Positions 13,774 through 36,236 of a stretch of DNA of 36,533 nucleotides are shown here, piece after piece (within the stretch, counting starts at the first letter, position 1; each line of letters opens with the position of its first letter). Below the pieces are notes generated by a model. That model had not been told where the DNA came from. It made no database searches and was given only the letters and a program-made list of their open reading frames with translations. Source of the DNA: a virus; the IMG/VR virus record IMGVR_UViG_3300025913_000014, positions 1-36,533 of that record. One strand, written 5' to 3'. The position numbers and the translations under genes are program-made.

Positions 13774-14304
13774 TTAGATACCGTGCGAGATCAGCGTCGG
13801 TACGTCCTGCGATCCACCCGTGAGATTTGCACCAGACACCGAGCCGTGCGCCGAAATCGCCAACGTGCCGAGGTTTCCGAAAGCGCCCGGAACAAGCGCG
13901 GTGATCGTCACGATGGCTGCAGCGGATGTCGCGACTACCTGCTTATTGAGGGTCGTGTTCGCGTTGATACAGGCAGCCAGATTTGCGGCGGTCGCCGTAT
14001 CGCTGGCTCCGATTAAGAACTGGACGGCTCCCGACGGAGAGGCTTTCCCGGTCAACACAGTCCCGTTAACCGTGACGGTGTCATTGGCGACAAACGCGGA
14101 GAGGGTGATTGTGCCGGAGGCCTGAACGACGGTCGTCGAAACGTAAGCCTTCGAGGCGGTAATGCCACCCGCCATTCTGCGGAAGTAGTCACTGATCGCA
14201 TTGAGCAAGGTCACCGGCGATTGCCGGGACAAAAGGAATTTGTCTTTTACTGCCTGTGCGGACTCCTGAGAAGTAACGATGATGCTGAAAACGCTGTTAG
14301 CCAT
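13774..14304 (-). CDS. Virion protein with beta module shared with the nozzle-like protein
   Basis: A 176-residue protein following the major capsid gene and its downstream hairpin. The first 45 residues are helical (AVKDKFLLSRQSPVTLLNAI); the rest forms a beta-rich module with DTVTVNGTVLTGKAS, then DTATAANLAACINA. The last segment closely parallels DATARNLVACINQ in the 838-residue nozzle-like protein. Position suggests a head decoration, head-completion or tail protein. AGGAGAG precedes the start. Confidence 0.6.
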   Translation of the reverse strand: MANSVFSIIVTSQESAQAVKDKFLLSRQSPVTLLNAISDYFRRMAGGITASKAYVSTTVVQASGTITLSAFVANDTVTVNGTVLTGKASPSGAVQFLIGASDTATAANLAACINANTTLNKQVVATSAAAIVTITALVPGAFGNLGTLAISAHGSVSGANLTGGSQDVPTLISHGI

Positions 14305-14381: not shown

Positions 14382-15674
14382 TTAGTTCGTGGTGTTCGTG
14401 ATGTTCTTGAACTGCACGCACCGGGCAGGCGCAGTCTCAATGAAGAGGCTGGTGTCCGAGACGAGCCGGGTTTCATACCCGAGAGAGTTCTGCAGCATGA
14501 CGAAGTACTTATCCGGGTCTTCGACGCCGGGGTTGAACGCGAGCTCAACCGAGCCGATCCGTTTCCAGCGCTTCTCAAGGTCAGGCACGAGGTGAGCCTG
14601 GTTCGTCTTGATGTACCCGTGGGGCACAATGACGAGCGGGCCGTTCGAGCTCATGAACTCGATTTCTTCTGCGCCATTGCTCAAGCGCGCCGAAGAATCG
14701 CCGGTGTAGCGTCGGAGTCCGGCCTGGTCGTTCAGCAGGTTCGCCCAAGTGGGCGGGCTGACGAACAAGTGCGCCTTCTCCATCAAGCCTTTGGCAACCG
14801 CGACCGCGACGCCTTCTTGGACCTTACCGAAGGTCAAGGGGGCGTTGTTACAGTCGAACTGGTTACCGGCCCAGAGCGAATACAGCGTCGAGTCGATTCC
14901 GTACAACGTCCCGGTGTTCGACGCAACGGCAGCAAGGCCAGGGAACTCAACGGTTTTTGCGCCCGCCCAATAGATGGTCAGGTTCGTGCCGGACAGCGCG
15001 TTAAGCGCGGTGATTCCGGTAGCAGTACCCGTGACCGTAATGGTCGAGGACGTCGGCGTGGTCGCGTTGTAGCTGACAGCCGAGATCGTGAAGATCGCGT
15101 CTGCAGCGGAGCTGACCAACGAGGCGCCGTTGTAGAAGTTGATCGTCGCGTTTTCCTTGCCAGCGAAGAGTCCGGCAGCCATGTCCTGAACGGGCACGGT
15201 TTCGGAGGTTGCGCTGTTGTTGGTGAACGCGGCGGTGCCGGTGCTTCCCATGCCGACCGATCCGTAGAGCAACTCGGATTCGATGTAGCCGGTCTCGGAC
15301 TCGACCATGTTGGTGATCAGAAGTTCGAGCGCATCTTCCACTGCCTGGTCCTTCGAGGCGGTGCGGATGATGGCATCGACGCCGATCTGCCCGCGGAGCG
15401 CGAAGAACATGGACTGGAGTTGGGCGTTCTGCATGGTCATCGCCACGCTGTTGTTCAACGTGAGCGGGAGGGTCGAGGAGCTGTTACCGAACGTGATCCC
15501 CTGTTCGTTCGACAAGATCACCGGCTGGTTGTAATGCGCGCCGATGCGATCCTTTTTGGAAAACTTCGACATCTTCAGAACTTTGGCGAAGGCCGGAACA
15601 ACGTTGACGACCGAGTCCGCATAGCGTTCTTTCGTCAAGCCGTTGAGTGTGGCAAGGGTATCTGCAGCAGCCAT
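14382..15674 (-). CDS. Major capsid protein
   Basis: A 430-residue protein. The N-terminus (TLATLNGLTKERYADSVVN) and the NQPVILSNEQGITF segment follow the pattern of podovirus-type HK97-fold coat proteins. A Thr/Ser-rich beta insertion (about residues 180-250, including STITVTGTATGITALNAL) could be an Ig-like or I-domain-like surface domain. The C-terminal half has MEKAHLFVSPPTWANLLND and the closing LFIETAPARCVQF strands. It follows the scaffold gene after a 156-base leader with two structured RNA elements, and AAAGGAG precedes the start. The gene order portal, scaffold, capsid supports the call. Confidence 0.8.
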   Translation of the reverse strand: MAAADTLATLNGLTKERYADSVVNVVPAFAKVLKMSKFSKKDRIGAHYNQPVILSNEQGITFGNSSSTLPLTLNNSVAMTMQNAQLQSMFFALRGQIGVDAIIRTASKDQAVEDALELLITNMVESETGYIESELLYGSVGMGSTGTAAFTNNSATSETVPVQDMAAGLFAGKENATINFYNGASLVSSAADAIFTISAVSYNATTPTSSTITVTGTATGITALNALSGTNLTIYWAGAKTVEFPGLAAVASNTGTLYGIDSTLYSLWAGNQFDCNNAPLTFGKVQEGVAVAVAKGLMEKAHLFVSPPTWANLLNDQAGLRRYTGDSSARLSNGAEEIEFMSSNGPLVIVPHGYIKTNQAHLVPDLEKRWKRIGSVELAFNPGVEDPDKYFVMLQNSLGYETRLVSDTSLFIETAPARCVQFKNITNTTN

Positions 15675-15740
15675 GATGAGTCTCCTTTAAGGTTATTCGG
15701 AGCCCCACACGGCATTCCGTACTGCGGTACTTCGTCTCAA

Positions 15741-15823
15741 CGGGTAGAGTCGCTTTCGCGGTTGCTCATCCGGGTCCTACGTTTTGCTGGGTAGAGGCGC
15801 CTTGCGGCGGTAGCTCATCCAGC
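15741..15823 (-). ncRNA. Tandem structured RNA element in the capsid gene leader
   Basis: Two hairpins on the transcribed strand, at 15786-15823 and 15741-15772. Each has an outer stem (GCUGG/CCAGC; CGG/CCG), a 2x3 internal loop AU/UAC, a GAG/CUC stem, a 4x1 loop (CUAC/C; CAAC/A), an inner stem (CGCC/GGCG; CGC/GCG) and a GNRA tetraloop (GCAA; GAAA). Loop bases are conserved while stem lengths and pairs differ in compensating ways, which argues for selection on RNA structure. It lies 67 bases upstream of the capsid start codon. It may control capsid translation, bind protein or stabilise mRNA. I do not recognise a described RNA family. Confidence 0.7.
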
Positions 15824-15830
15824 GAAAGCT

Positions 15831-16826
15831 TTATTTCCTACCCAACCTTTCGTCGCGCCGATTCAGCCATTCGGTCATGGACATCTTCCCGTTGCCCTTG
15901 GCAGGCTCCGACGACGTCGGCTTCGGTCCCGGTTTCGGGGCGAGGCCCTTCGCGCGGAGCTTTTTTAAATCCGCTTTCCTGAGCAGCTTGACGTACTCGT
16001 TGGGTGCCGACGCGAGAATCCTTTCCTCGTATTGATCGTCGGTCTCATTCGCCGCCTTCGGGGGCAGCAGGAACTTGGACTGAAGGTCCACAAGCTCCTG
16101 TCGAATCTGCCCAGCAATGGCTGGCATATCAGCTGGTTGTCGCGCTTTGGCGGCAGCCTTGACGTAATCGGCGAAGCGGCGCACCACATAGGAGGTCTTC
16201 GGTAGCCGTTCAGCATCGATGGCCTCTGCGATCGTCTTCTCCCAATACGCACGACGCTGAGCAATCAGCGTGTCCATCTCCTGTTGCTTCCGCTCGTTTT
16301 CCGCGCGCTCTTTCTCAGCCTTAAGGCTGGCGAGCTCGGCTTTGGTTTGCATCGCCTCGCGCTGCTCGGGCGTCATCCGCTGCTCTTGGATCATCGTCCA
16401 CACATATTCTTCGGCCAGCTTGCGGACGTCGTGTCCAAGCGCGGGGTTAGAAAGGACCTTCCACGGATCCTTTTTCAAAGCCTCGATGAGCTGCCCGGTT
16501 TGGGCGGTGGTCATGTCGAGGTCTTTCTTCAGCTTTGCGGCGAGCTGCATCCGCTTGTCCGCTTCCCGGCTCTTAAGCTCGGAAGCAATAATCCGCTCCC
16601 TGGCCTTTATCGGGAGCTTTTCCCAATCCTCGCCGAATTGCGCGGCAAGGTCGGCCTCTAGCTGGTTAGCCGGCTTTTTAGCTTCCGGGGCCTTCCCATC
16701 CGTTCCTTCAGCCGGCTTTTGAGGGTCACCGGCTGGAGCTGCTGGCGCTGCCGGCGCCTTCGGGTCTGCAGGTGCAGGCGCTGGCGGCGTTGCGGGTGCT
16801 GGTGCTGGTGTGTTGGGTGTAGACAT
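15831..16826 (-). CDS. Capsid scaffolding protein
   Basis: A 331-residue protein starting at the complement of 16824-16826, with AAGGAG five bases upstream. It has a Pro/Ala-rich disordered N-terminus (residues 1-55), a long charged helical middle (ADLAAQFGEDWEKLPIKARE; KAELASLKAEKERAENERK as a coiled coil) and a basic C-terminus (KPGPKPTSSEPAKGNGKMS), the usual plan of scaffold proteins that bind coat protein through a positively charged end. It sits directly upstream of the major capsid gene, as in most tailed phages. Confidence 0.75.
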   Translation of the reverse strand: MSTPNTPAPAPATPPAPAPADPKAPAAPAAPAGDPQKPAEGTDGKAPEAKKPANQLEADLAAQFGEDWEKLPIKARERIIASELKSREADKRMQLAAKLKKDLDMTTAQTGQLIEALKKDPWKVLSNPALGHDVRKLAEEYVWTMIQEQRMTPEQREAMQTKAELASLKAEKERAENERKQQEMDTLIAQRRAYWEKTIAEAIDAERLPKTSYVVRRFADYVKAAAKARQPADMPAIAGQIRQELVDLQSKFLLPPKAANETDDQYEERILASAPNEYVKLLRKADLKKLRAKGLAPKPGPKPTSSEPAKGNGKMSMTEWLNRRDERLGRK

Positions 16827-16834
16827 ATTTCTCC

Positions 16835-17590
16835 TTAGTTCCTGTCCTGGCCCTCGCCGTTGGGGGTGCATTTAAGCTGTATCCCGCCGGTCGTCGGGCC
16901 GATAACGTTCAGTCGAATCCAGGTGTAATCAAACGGCCCGAAATCCCACATCGATGCAGCGCCGCCGAGCGTATAGCTCAGCATCGTCACGCTCGAAATA
17001 GCGACGTTGTATGGCGTCGTCGTCAGGTCGTTGTAATTCGTTCCGTTGTTCGATACCTGCCACTTGAAGCTCGGGGTTCCTGTAATAGCAAGAGGCGCCA
17101 ACGTGTAGGTCCTCGCCGTGTTTGAGCTGGTAATCACAATGCCGACGCCAGCGATGGCGCCCGTGCTCGTGAGCGCCAGCTTGAAGCTGCTCCGATCGAC
17201 GGGGATCACGTAATACGTGGTCTGGTTAACCAGCGGCGAGACGGTTTGGGTGCTCGACGAGTAAAGAACGGGCAACGCGATCATTCCCGTCTGCGTCGGG
17301 TCCAGCGACGTGAAGGTATTGGTCGCAGAGATGACCGCCGAGTTCAGCGTAATGTTGGAGTCGGAGAAGTTCGTCGTCACGATCGTCGCGCTCGTGTAAA
17401 CGCACTGCATGGCAAGCGTGTCGACGTGCGCGTTGTTCGTCTGGAACGCATACGTTGTGCTGTAGGCCAGAGCCGATTCATTTGCGATTGGCTTTTGCCA
17501 CGTCGGTGTCATCCACGCGTAAGCGAGGGTCGCGACTCCAGTGAAGATGGCAACACCTGTGAGGGCAGCTCGTACAATTTTCTTGAACAT
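16835..17590 (-). CDS. Signal-peptide-bearing virion-region protein
   Basis: A 251-residue protein. It starts with a classical signal peptide: basic MFKK and R7, a hydrophobic core (about residues 8-23) and LAYA before a likely cleavage at 25/26. The mature part is beta-rich, Thr/Ser/Asn-rich, with PSFKWQVSNNGTNYNDLTTT and a TWIRLNV strand near the C-terminus, reminiscent of Ig-like or carbohydrate-binding modules. Export is odd for a gene between portal and scaffold, so it may be displayed on or outside the host, or the hydrophobic N-terminus may serve virion assembly. No family recognised. Confidence 0.6.
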   Translation of the reverse strand: MFKKIVRAALTGVAIFTGVATLAYAWMTPTWQKPIANESALAYSTTYAFQTNNAHVDTLAMQCVYTSATIVTTNFSDSNITLNSAVISATNTFTSLDPTQTGMIALPVLYSSSTQTVSPLVNQTTYYVIPVDRSSFKLALTSTGAIAGVGIVITSSNTARTYTLAPLAITGTPSFKWQVSNNGTNYNDLTTTPYNVAISSVTMLSYTLGGAASMWDFGPFDYTWIRLNVIGPTTGGIQLKCTPNGEGQDRN

Positions 17591-21588: not shown

Positions 21589-21919
21589 TGTCCTCTAACT
21601 CTTTAATGAGCTTCCAAACCTCGTCGGCCTGGAGCTTCGATTGCTCGGGATCCCACGTTGGCTTCGTGATCTCCACCATCTCCGTCGGCTTGCCCATGCC
21701 ATACGCCAGGGCCAGCTTCAGTGCCTCAAACTGCAAATTCTCATTCGGGCCAATCTCCACCACGCGCCCGTTGTACTCGCGGAACGTGTGCCCTTTGCCC
21801 TCGGCAACGTCGAGCAGCTTCTGGATACCCTTCTGCTCGCACCACTCGCGGATGATCTGGTTCCGACCGCTGCCTTTCGGTCGGCCCTGTCCGAGCCTAT
21901 TTCCCGGCTGAAAGGGCAA
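21521..21919 (-). CDS. Terminase small subunit-like protein
   Basis: A 132-residue protein with an N-terminal FQPGNRLGQGRPKGSGRN segment, a Gly/Pro/Arg signature shared by DUF5681-type and small-terminase-like phage proteins, followed by helices (QIIREWCEQKGIQKLLDVA) and FEALKLALAYGMGKP. It immediately precedes the large terminase gene and overlaps it, the usual place for the subunit that recognises phage DNA. It lacks an obvious separate HTH, so the assignment is by context and N-terminal signature. Confidence 0.65.
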   Translation of the reverse strand: MPFQPGNRLGQGRPKGSGRNQIIREWCEQKGIQKLLDVAEGKGHTFREYNGRVVEIGPNENLQFEALKLALAYGMGKPTEMVEITKPTWDPEQSKLQADEVWKLIKELEDNGNSGTTRPSDPASVEDRPSSL

Positions 21920-23108
21920 GCGGGCCCTCCTTCACTGCCTTCTGGCCTGTGAACATTTCCCAGCGCTTTACGATCACGTCGCAATATCCCTCGTCGAGCT
22001 CCATTGCAAAGCACCGACGGTTAAGCTTTTCGGCGGCGATCAACGTGGATCCAGACCCGCCGAACAGGTCCAGGACCACGTCGCCCGACTTCGAGCTGTT
22101 GGTGATCGCGCGCATAACGAGCTCGACGGGTTTCATAGTGGGATGCAGACGGTTGGCGGCTGGCTTGCGTTCGTGCCAGAGCGTGGATTGCTTCTTGTCG
22201 CCGTACCAAGGATCGGACTCGCCCTTCACGTAGGCGTAGAAGATGGGTTCGTGCTGAAACTTATAGCGCCCGAAGCCCCAGGCAAATGTGTTCTTGGCCC
22301 AGATGATCTGGCAACGGACAACGAAGCCGGCAGCTTCGAGCGCTGTTTGGAACTCCCGTTGAAAGGAGCTCGGATGGCAGACGTACAAGCTGGCGCCGTC
22401 TTTGCAGGTCAATCGATACGAAGTAAAAGTGCTAGTGAGAAAGGAAAGGAAATCTTCGGCTGACATCTTGTCGTTTTTGATCTTGAGCTTCTCGTCGGTG
22501 TAGCCTTCATAATCGACGTTGTAGGGAGGGTCGGTAAAAACGAGATCGGCTTTCACTCCATCCATCAACCGTTCAAGCGCACCCAAATCGGTGGCATCAC
22601 CACAATGGAGCCGATGCACTCCAAGGATGTATGTATCTCCGCGCTGGGTGGATGGACTGGCCGGTTTTTCCGGCACCTCGTCATCGTCGCACTCGCCCTG
22701 CTTGCCCTCAAAATCGATCAGCTCTTTCAGCTCGAGCTCATTGAACCCGGTGAGGTTCAGATCGAAGGAGCCGTTGTCGAGATCAACGAGCAGCTCCTTC
22801 AGCTTGGGGATGTCCCATTCGCCGGTGATCTTGTTCAGCGCAATGTTCAGCGCCTTCTCGTGCGGCTCGTCGAGATCCACAACGCTGACCTCGAAATTCG
22901 TGTCGCCACGCTCCAGCAGCACCTTGAACCGCTGATGCCCGCCGACGAGATTGCCGGAGCGTTCGTTCCAGATCAAAGGTTCGACCGAATCAAAAATGGC
23001 GATCGACCGCTTGAGCTGCTCGTACTGAGCATCCCCCGGTTTAAGATCCTTGCGCGGGTTGTACGGCGCAGGATTGATTTGCGACTGGTTGATCGTTTTT
23101 ATGCGCAT
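21897..23108 (-). CDS. ParB-like domain / DNA methyltransferase fusion (beta class)
   Basis: A 403-residue protein. Residues 1-110 form a ParB/Srx-like domain (NPAPYNPRKDLKPG; VGGHQRFKVLLERG with GGHQR at 56-60). Residues 165-400 form an amino-methyltransferase with catalytic DPPY (193-196) preceding the SAM-binding FGGSGST (349-355), the motif order of the beta class that makes N6-methyladenine or N4-methylcytosine. LHPTMKPVEL is also present. No restriction partner is nearby, so protection of phage DNA or epigenetic control is likely. The start is at the complement of 23106-23108, directly after a terminator's T-run and without a visible ribosome site. Confidence 0.88.
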   Translation of the reverse strand: MRIKTINQSQINPAPYNPRKDLKPGDAQYEQLKRSIAIFDSVEPLIWNERSGNLVGGHQRFKVLLERGDTNFEVSVVDLDEPHEKALNIALNKITGEWDIPKLKELLVDLDNGSFDLNLTGFNELELKELIDFEGKQGECDDDEVPEKPASPSTQRGDTYILGVHRLHCGDATDLGALERLMDGVKADLVFTDPPYNVDYEGYTDEKLKIKNDKMSAEDFLSFLTSTFTSYRLTCKDGASLYVCHPSSFQREFQTALEAAGFVVRCQIIWAKNTFAWGFGRYKFQHEPIFYAYVKGESDPWYGDKKQSTLWHERKPAANRLHPTMKPVELVMRAITNSSKSGDVVLDLFGGSGSTLIAAEKLNRRCFAMELDEGYCDVIVKRWEMFTGQKAVKEGPLALSAGK

Positions 23109-23157
23109 AAAAAAAACGCTGGCAGTGTAGGGGTGTGGCCCCACACGGCCAGCGTTT
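23109..23157 (-). terminator. Intrinsic terminator abutting the methyltransferase start codon
   Basis: On the minus strand the arms AACGCTGGC and GCCAGCGTT enclose a second stem GTGT-GGGG/CCCC-ACAC, followed by a run of eight T. The ATG of the methyltransferase follows the last T with no gap. Termination here would separate the early/middle genes from the packaging and virion genes unless antiterminated. Confidence 0.85.
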
Positions 23158-34514: not shown

Positions 34515-34868
34515 ATGTCAATGTGGAGGGGCGCCGGATATCCAGTCTCAACAAAGGTGCAGCATCGAAACGGGTACATCAAAGTGAAGATCGAGGGCCA
34601 AGACGGAAAACCAAAATGGGAGGCCGAATCTCGCCGCGTGTGGGAGCTCCAAAGGGGGCCGCTTTCACCGGGAGATCGAGTCTTTCACATTGATGGCGAT
34701 CGCACCAACAACAGAATTACCAACCTCGCGAAGGTTCACTATAACGAGGTGAAGTTCGTGTTCCTGAAACAATCGCGGGTGCTGTTCATGCCCAAAACCA
34801 AGGAGGCAAACCGTGGCGTGGATCGACAAGAGAAAAAATTACAGACTGCGGGACAGAATCGGCGGTAA
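34515..34868 (+). CDS. HNH_3-type endonuclease-like protein
   Basis: A 117-residue protein with AGGAGG upstream. RRVWELQRGPLSPGDRVFHI, followed by DGDRTNNRITNLAKV, fits the HNH_3 family of small homing-type nucleases: the usual HHIDG is here FHIDG, so the first His of the pair is replaced, while the Asn pair and NL are kept. The C-terminal 18 residues overlap the integrase start in another frame. It may be a free-standing homing endonuclease or domesticated DNA-binding protein. Confidence 0.7.
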   Translation: MSMWRGAGYPVSTKVQHRNGYIKVKIEGQDGKPKWEAESRRVWELQRGPLSPGDRVFHIDGDRTNNRITNLAKVHYNEVKFVFLKQSRVLFMPKTKEANRGVDRQEKKLQTAGQNRR

Positions 34869-36000
34869 GAACGTCACCATTGTCCGCAACCTAGGCGTCT
34901 GGAAGGGCGCGGCTGATAATTGGCTGGTGGAGTACAAGAAGGCCCTGGCACAGGGGTTTACCTTCACGCCGCCGATCGTCGTGGCGGACATAGAGAACTT
35001 TTTGAAGGCCAGACGTGATGGCCTCGATGCGCCCGATATGGCGCGCCGGATCCCGATGGAGGAGATGGTGGACCTCTATGTTCAGCATCACGGCCCGTCG
35101 GTGAAGGGGTTTAAGGAGTATCACGAGGCTAAGGCGAATGGGCATGGCAAGAGCAGGACCGCCTATTACGGGTTTTGCTGCCAGATGAACCAGATTAAGC
35201 GCTGGTGGGCCGGCAAAATGTCCGACGAGATCTCGAAGCTCGACGTGCGCGACGTTCTGGCAGGCTATACCAGCGTCGGCTCTCACATGAAGCTTCTCGG
35301 CAGAATTGGAAGGCTCTTTCGGGCCTTCGCTGAATGGAACGAGGAGGGCAACATCCTCCCGTTCAAAGTGCGCCTGCCAGCGCACAACCCGGCGACGAAG
35401 TGGCGTAAGGAGATGAAGCCGGCCCAAAAAAGGGAGCTGCCAGACACCAGGGTGCTATCTCCAGAGGAATGGACGCATTTCCGTAAATTCCTCAAATCGC
35501 GCACCCTGGCTATTTGTGAAATCGCATTGAAGCGCTTCCTGCGGATAGCGGACATCAGGAAGATCAGCCAGCTCAAGATCGTGCAGGGCCAGATCCGTGG
35601 GCTGCAAGAGAAGACCGGGGAGGCGTTCAGCGTCCCGGTACTTGCCGAGCAACCTACCGGGTACGACTTCACGAACTTTAAGCGGGAGTTTCACGCGGCG
35701 CAGGTCGCGGCTGGGATGGATTGGCCTGCAGATCACCCGCTGCATTTCTCGGTGAAAGACCTCCGGCGCACGGGCGCCACCTGGGCCTACATCGAAACGA
35801 AGGACCTCGTAGGAGTCAGCGAAATGCTCGGGCACAGAAACATTAAAACGACGATTCGATACCTCAACATCACGCATGCCGACAAGGCGCGGATTGCCCG
35901 GGCTGTCGATAAAATCGCCGATCAACTATGGGGCAAGGCGCCCCGCGGTGGAGCGCCGGTGGAGCATACGTCGGGAGCCCGCAAAAAGTTGAGCACCTAA
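34813..36000 (+). CDS. int: Tyrosine integrase
   Basis: A 395-residue site-specific recombinase. The N-terminal 50 residues form an arm-binding domain (MAWIDKRKNYRLRDRIGGKN); core-binding helices follow to about 200. The catalytic domain shows Arg244 in RFLRIADIRK, a Lys near 267 (QEKTGE), Lys315-x-x-Arg318 in FSVKDLRRTGATW (Lys at the usual His), His341 in MLGHRNIKTTIRY and nucleophile Tyr350. It overlaps the HNH-like gene by 56 bases and lies directly before the tRNA-Val and the repeated TGGAC motifs, so integration at a tRNA-Val is likely. Confidence 0.92.
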   Translation: MAWIDKRKNYRLRDRIGGKNVTIVRNLGVWKGAADNWLVEYKKALAQGFTFTPPIVVADIENFLKARRDGLDAPDMARRIPMEEMVDLYVQHHGPSVKGFKEYHEAKANGHGKSRTAYYGFCCQMNQIKRWWAGKMSDEISKLDVRDVLAGYTSVGSHMKLLGRIGRLFRAFAEWNEEGNILPFKVRLPAHNPATKWRKEMKPAQKRELPDTRVLSPEEWTHFRKFLKSRTLAICEIALKRFLRIADIRKISQLKIVQGQIRGLQEKTGEAFSVPVLAEQPTGYDFTNFKREFHAAQVAAGMDWPADHPLHFSVKDLRRTGATWAYIETKDLVGVSEMLGHRNIKTTIRYLNITHADKARIARAVDKIADQLWGKAPRGGAPVEHTSGARKKLST

Positions 36001-36160: not shown

Positions 36161-36236
36161 TGGTGCCCGGTACAGGGCTCGAACCTGTGACCTCCACAAT
36201 GTCAATGTGGCACTCTACCAGCTGAGCTAACCGGGC
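36161..36236 (-). tRNA. tRNA-Val (GAC), with encoded CCA
   Basis: On the minus strand the acceptor arms GCCCGGT and ACCGGGC pair, D-arm AGCTCAGCTGGTAGAG, anticodon stem CCACA/TGTGG around loop TTGACAT (anticodon GAC), T-arm ACAGG-TTCGAGC-CCTGT, discriminator A and encoded CCA. Seven T follow the CCA end. All stems look intact, so it could be functional. Next to an integrase, it is likely also the attP core, with the 3' half of a host tRNA-Val gene rebuilt on integration. Confidence 0.93.

Follow-up and report, generated by a model that had tools for sequence, protein, structure and literature searches.

Twin covarying hairpins and a conserved RBS hairpin in the major capsid leader of a small P22-like phage group: a probable switch for shell-protein synthesis

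Outside a few model systems, little is known of the post-transcriptional means by which tailed phages balance and time the synthesis of capsid and scaffold protein. The space between the scaffold-like and major capsid genes of one uncultured phage raises this question anew (IMG/VR record IMGVR_UViG_3300025913_000014, positions 1-36,533; ‘the window’ below is this whole stretch of 36,533 nucleotides). A first-pass annotation had noticed two tandem RNA hairpins there: do they form, and what might they do for the capsid cistron? The leader is probably a built-in switch that times shell-protein synthesis. A compact conserved leader of this kind, in which a recognition hairpin present twice is joined to a hairpin that closes the RBS, would make the ratio-and-timing question directly testable.

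The phages that carry the leader are a small uncultured P22-like group. The portal protein has matches to P22_portal and PHROG 156, the terminase to Terminase_6N. The gene upstream of the capsid is presumed to encode the scaffolding protein, a label given by position and composition only; no family match was found for its product. The predicted structure of the capsid protein was uninformative (pLDDT 30). Scanning IMG/VR with the capsid protein yielded two relatives with the leader (Table 1), and these three phages, of limited diversity, are the base for the comparisons that follow. The scaffold-like proteins (15831-16871 in the window, L093 11521-12576) have diverged, at 55-70% identity; their C-termini end in a near-invariant basic tail, KMSM(T/S)(E/D)WL..RD.RLG.K, which may bind coat protein or RNA. 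The gene between portal and scaffold-like gene (16835-17590, minus strand) encodes 251 aa; its counterparts in the relatives encode about 470-480 aa (L091 10077-11486, L093 10064-11509). The L091 counterpart resembles the gene that follows the capsid gene (13774-14304), which suggests shared repeated domains.

Table 1. Leader elements, flanking genes and relatives (positions are those of the window unless a record is named)
Feature	Positions or record	Strand	Sequence or remark
Major capsid gene	14382-15674	-	PHROG 14242 ‘major head protein’, E 2.9e-8; order terL-portal-scaffold-capsid
Long-range helix, 3' strand (proposed)	15640-15647	-	CUCAACGG; in capsid codons 10-12; CUCAA(C/U)GG in all three phages
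RBS-sequestering hairpin	15664-15725	-	core GCCGUG UGGG G CUCC [13 nt] GGAG A CUCA U CAUGGC (15713-15670)
Long-range helix, 5' strand (proposed)	15736-15743	-	CCGUUGAG; its CCG doubles as the H2 3' outer strand
Hairpin 2 (H2)	15741-15772	-	CGG AU GAG CAAC CGC GAAA GCG A CUC UAC CCG
Hairpin 1 (H1)	15786-15823	-	GCUGG AU GAG CUAC CGCC GCAA GGCG C CUC UAC CCAGC
Presumed scaffolding protein gene	15831-16871	-	upstream of capsid, between portal block and capsid; Ala/Pro/Lys-rich N-terminus
H1 orthologue, L001			UUCGG GC GAG CAAC CGGC ACA GCCG U CUC UAC CCGAA
H1 orthologue, L083			CUGG AU GAG CAAC CGGC CCA GCCG U CUC UAC CCAG
Extra ORF, L083/L093 phage only	L093 12577-12789	+	up to 70 aa, GTG start, inner ATG at about codon 22
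Relative L001/L091	IMGVR_UViG_3300045391_001131		capsid 87% identical
Relative L083/L093	IMGVR_UViG_3300045884_000038		capsid match is the first 38 residues, at the contig end

The hairpins share the minus strand with the scaffold-like and capsid genes and thus lie on the transcribed strand, where the annotated anatomy of two tandem hairpins in the capsid leader was confirmed, coordinates included. From the outside inwards, H1 consists of an outer stem GCUGG/CCAGC, an internal loop AU/UAC, a middle helix GAG/CUC, a second internal loop CUAC/C, an inner stem CGCC/GGCG and a terminal GCAA; the corresponding parts of H2 are CGG/CCG, AU/UAC, GAG/CUC, CAAC/A, CGC/GCG and GAAA. The gap between them is 13 nt, and 66 nt separate the end of H2 from the capsid AUG (15674). 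The tandem pair precedes the homologous capsid gene in all three phages, and the six copies define a hairpin motif of 32-38 nt: outer stem (3-5 bp), inner stem (3-4 bp) and terminal loop vary, and a core, GAG-CWAC...CUC-URC, is present in six of six. The middle helix, part of this core, is invariant, and the second internal loop, CWAC/N, conceivably a C-loop, reads CAAC in five copies and CUAC in one. The first reads AU/UAC in four copies, GC/UAC in L001 copy 1 and AU/UGC in L001 copy 2. The two hairpins of the window do share their internal loops as annotated; across the phages, AU/UAC varies, in both L001 copies. GNRA loops, also claimed, are no general feature of the motif: H1, with a 4-bp inner stem, ends in GCAA in the window and in a triloop in each relative (ACA or CCA); only H2 keeps a GAAA loop, on a 3-bp inner stem, in all three phages. 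The conserved unpaired bases of the motif are those of the internal loops.

A single sequence is not enough to establish such hairpins, and their reality emerges from comparison among relatives. Taken alone, the window's leader folds no better than its shuffles (z = -0.41), and H2 is absent from its minimum-energy fold. Set against 28-48% identity between the three phages at 4-fold degenerate sites (capsid, portal, scaffold and terminase), H2 is 91-94% identical, H1 67-83%, the spacers 27-57%, and the block before the Shine-Dalgarno (SD) sequence 76-81%. When the six copies are aligned, 94.2% of cells pair, as against 82% in shuffled and 30-61% in slid controls, and the folding z is -3.5. Double changes occur in five pairs (nine cells), giving a covariation score that none of 500 shuffles matched; aligning the three leaders instead gives four pairs with double changes, a result equally high in 5 of 500 shuffles. 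The stems of H1 carry compensatory changes among the three phages (column-shuffle z = -3.2). H2 alone is too conserved to score (z = -0.85): its outer stem and middle helix do not vary between orthologues, and its inner stem changes from C-G to U-A in L083. The compensatory stem differences first seen between the two hairpins of one phage are in this way upheld across six copies and three phages and, judged by this covariation across independent sequences, the leader is a conserved structured RNA. Orthologous copies share features that paralogous copies lack; the duplication is therefore older than the divergence of the three phages, each of which retains both copies.

One might still suppose that the repeat acts as DNA, as a protein-binding direct repeat or the remnant of a mobile element, since two direct repeats 44-49 bp apart are indeed present. 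Compensatory stem changes disfavour this, as do conserved G-U pairs in the hairpin over the SD described below, the strict link to the RBS and the absence of other copies from the phage records; we regard a DNA-level role as scarcely credible.

Attachment to the capsid gene is also seen where the neighbourhood has changed. The L083 phage has an additional ORF, at most 70 codons long and with no Pfam match found, between the scaffold-like gene and the hairpins; H1, H2 and the SD hairpin still directly precede the capsid gene. The annotated picture of a functional duplicated RNA, capsid-linked and with conserved unpaired bases, is supported. The distance to the upstream gene is short throughout: H1 starts 4-7 nt past a stop codon in all three phages (7 nt past that of the scaffold-like gene, at 15831, in the window), so a terminating ribosome would overlap H1.

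That geometry invites an explanation by coupling or attenuation with no dedicated factor, in which the ribosome terminating upstream would cover H1, the copies would re-pair, and the capsid-to-scaffold ratio would be set accordingly. The short distance, kept even with a different upstream ORF, speaks for it, as does the identical core, by virtue of which H1 and H2 strands are interchangeable. The distance may equally reflect compact packing, however, and strand swapping does not require the fixed unpaired CWAC and UAC, which are left unexplained; we judge such coupling unlikely.

An element of mRNA processing or stability could also be imagined, the hairpins marking an endonuclease site or protecting a processed capsid mRNA at its 5' end. 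Short stable hairpins in mid-operon, directly ahead of the most abundantly needed product, would suit such a role. The interrupted helices of 3-5 bp, with their sequence-specific internal loops, are nevertheless unlike RNase III substrates, and the motif is more specific than a stability hairpin requires; we consider this quite unlikely.

The best clue to mechanism is one that the first-pass annotation missed: a conserved hairpin downstream of the pair that sequesters the start of the capsid gene. It buries both the SD sequence GGAG (15685-15682) and the AUG (15674-15672), by pairing GCCGUG (or GCUAUG) with CAUGGC and CUCC with GGAG, with further pairs between. All 17 pairs are kept in the three phages (51 of 51 cells, none broken), and the alignment has a column-shuffle z of -3.57 (2 of 1000); the single sequences give -3.3, -1.3 and -1.2. 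Four changes are pair-compatible and one-sided (C-G/U-G, G-U/A-U, G-U/G-C and G-C/G-U). That no double changes are seen is attributable to the AUG-side strand, which is fixed by the needs of the RBS and of coding; it weakens the evolutionary argument for this hairpin a little. In full-length folds of the three phages, pairing reaches about 98-100% for the SD and 97-100% for the AUG. Among 15 other starts in the window, AUG pairing is about 0.1-0.6, apart from one doubtful GTG start at 1.0. Pairing of both SD and start codon is conserved, as in an RBS-occluding leader. An alternative third hairpin, CGGA...UCCG (GCC/GGC becoming GCU/AGC in L083), has a low predicted probability and competes with the better-supported SD hairpin.

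A longer-range pairing may complete the closed state. The segment CCGUUGAG, which overlaps the end of H2, is invariant in the three phages, and its UUGAG part is dispensable for H2 in two of them. Pairing of 15736-15743 with 15647-15640 (CUCAACGG, within the capsid coding sequence) has a predicted probability of 0.76-1.0 in all three phages, and the resulting 8-bp helix is the longest perfectly conserved one in the aligned leader plus 60 coding nt. A helix equally long arises in about 8% of shuffled alignments, so that this one falls short of significance by itself, and recoding the start of the capsid gene with synonymous codons does not make it stand out. Our hypothesis is that it would enclose the SD hairpin, which would account for the invariant UUGAG after H2. 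As the helix takes up the 3' strand of H2 (CCG), it excludes the outer stem of H2; this sharing of CCG is seen in three of three phages, for a helix itself weakly above chance.

From these elements a mechanism can be proposed. The reading that we favour, with moderate confidence, is that the RNA serves the major capsid cistron, within a late P22-like operon, as a structured 5' leader that would control capsid translation. The RBS would be closed by default by the conserved SD/AUG hairpin; the twin hairpins would serve as the recognition module, read through their internal loops; and, less securely, the helix between CCGUUGAG and capsid codons 10-12 may complete the closed state. Formation or binding of H2 would then withdraw a strand from the closing helix and favour an open RBS. 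Because H2 competes with the closing helix, any factor that bound the twin hairpins would, on this topology, act as an activator of capsid translation. Folding energies count against this reading: imposing H1 and H2 on the full leader costs 5-13 kcal/mol, energies alone preferring other pairings for H2, and the twin hairpins would require help from a bound factor, from kinetic folding or from tertiary contacts. The putative factor would most naturally be a phage protein, for instance, at a guess, the scaffolding protein from the adjacent upstream gene, in which case capsid protein would be made only once scaffold is present. That a head-assembly protein opens the RBS by binding is likewise a guess. 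For a capsid gene, on which late infection makes heavy demands, such strong default closure is odd.

A different perspective makes the loop a negative one: excess capsid (or scaffold) protein would bind the twin hairpins and keep the RBS shut, in the manner of RNA-phage coat proteins acting on the replicase hairpin. The leader does precede the capsid gene, two identical sites would fit a dimeric or oligomeric structural protein, and a default-closed RBS could be the repressed state. On the other side, the suggested topology, with H2 set against the closing helix, points to activation. Feedback repression seems to us rather unlikely. The boldest version of the favoured reading, in which a duplicated internal-loop hairpin responds to scaffold or capsid as the head-assembly protein and thereby switches a closing helix that takes in capsid codons, would make the leader the founder of a new family of RNA operators; we put it forward tentatively and with more doubt than conviction. 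If true, it would mean that a dsDNA phage times synthesis of its shell protein via a dedicated RNA switch.

Parts of the architecture are familiar. Guanidine-II (mini-ykkC) riboswitches carry tandem, near-identical short hairpins in the 5' leader before a translational expression platform. Kissing between the P1 and P2 loops has been described (PMC9300104). The likeness lies in two similar hairpins upstream of a translational platform; the difference lies in recognition, which uses the terminal loop ACGR and kissing in guanidine-II, whereas the fixed bases of the capsid leader are in two internal loops. No ACGR terminal loop was found in either hairpin of the three phages (GCAA, ACA or CCA in H1, GAAA in H2), and the terminal loops vary and do not complement one another, which argues against loop-loop kissing of that kind. 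A metabolite or ion riboswitch of two small aptamers would explain why near-identical tandem hairpins with conserved loops precede an SD-sequestering hairpin; with no Rfam match found, with terminal loops of this sort, and with the motif confined to a single structural gene in one small group of phages, it is very unlikely.

A second comparison is with RNA phages. The coat operators of MS2, Qbeta and PP7 are single hairpins that contain the RBS and are recognised through a bulged A and the loop; the coat proteins repress by way of the replicase hairpin. In both cases a phage hairpin with unpaired bases sits at the RBS region of a phage gene; the capsid leader differs in that it belongs to a dsDNA phage, has its hairpin in duplicate and keeps the RBS in a further hairpin downstream. 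P22 offers a third comparison, with the gene order portal-scaffold-coat and autoregulation by its scaffolding protein, a post-transcriptional control that acts on the scaffold gene itself. The order is alike, and so would be the post-transcriptional control of a head gene; the leader element described here sits on the coat gene instead.

A fourth is HK022 put, a cis-acting RNA of about 70 nt downstream of early promoters, with two long-stemmed stem-loops and a triplex (PMC9378689). Like the capsid leader it is a cis-acting phage RNA with two stem-loops, and on the strength of the similar size the hairpins might act on RNA polymerase as a processive antitermination element of the late operon. 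The leader hairpins, though, are two copies of one motif, placed inside a structural operon, at a late gene and against its RBS; the stem architecture of put differs in its long stems and RNA triplex, and the conserved SD hairpin would go unexplained. We hold this to be highly improbable.

How widely is the motif distributed? A covariance model of it, a search that the annotation had proposed for related phages, finds exactly two copies in each of the three phage records, with pairing conserved, and none elsewhere in them; the motif is therefore specific to the capsid gene. In Rfam 15 no match at or above the gathering score was found for the leader, and elsewhere in the window only a tRNA was; the annotation's remark that it knew of no matching family holds at the Rfam level. 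The sole leader match, to InvR on the other strand (15 bits against a gathering score of 60), is at chance level. Scanning IMG/VR for the tandem pattern returned only the two known relatives, and no further real copies came from searches of IMG/VR by capsid and portal or from collections of phages and plasmids. A portal search of genome contigs found no prophage relative, and a pattern scan of the same contigs no real copy among the matches listed. In CP017838, a distant relative whose capsid is 23% identical, the leader is AT-rich and lacks the motif.

Other motif matches in IMG/VR and the genome contigs (the matches listed), screened for stems, gave no convincing tandem pair; the best single match, L142, is inside a Lon protease gene, and all were taken as chance. 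A 44-nt likeness to H1 in Ensifer plasmids (E = 0.1) lies within a large open frame (994 aa) and scores 21 bits with the covariance model, as against 52-54; it was rejected. Matches in T7-like Klebsiella phages are a mere 26-nt RBS-like stretch (E 0.5). An open-access literature search, incomplete in its coverage, found no description of the element. As the broader scans gave no further copy, the element would be young, narrowly distributed or diverged past the search patterns. The twin-hairpin motif is a new one within a familiar architecture, and the leader thus adds an unnamed RNA motif.

Two further loci in the window bear on the phage itself. Near the end of the window, a tyrosine integrase gene (34813-36000, plus strand; PF00589, PHROG 1) stands beside a complete tRNA-Val (gac) gene (36161-36236, minus strand), probably a prophage arrangement with its attachment site at the tRNA, which makes the phage likely temperate. 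Upstream of the terminase, a gene at 21897-23144 (minus strand) encodes a ParB-like N-terminal domain fused to a DNA methyltransferase (PHROG 498, E 1.5e-149).
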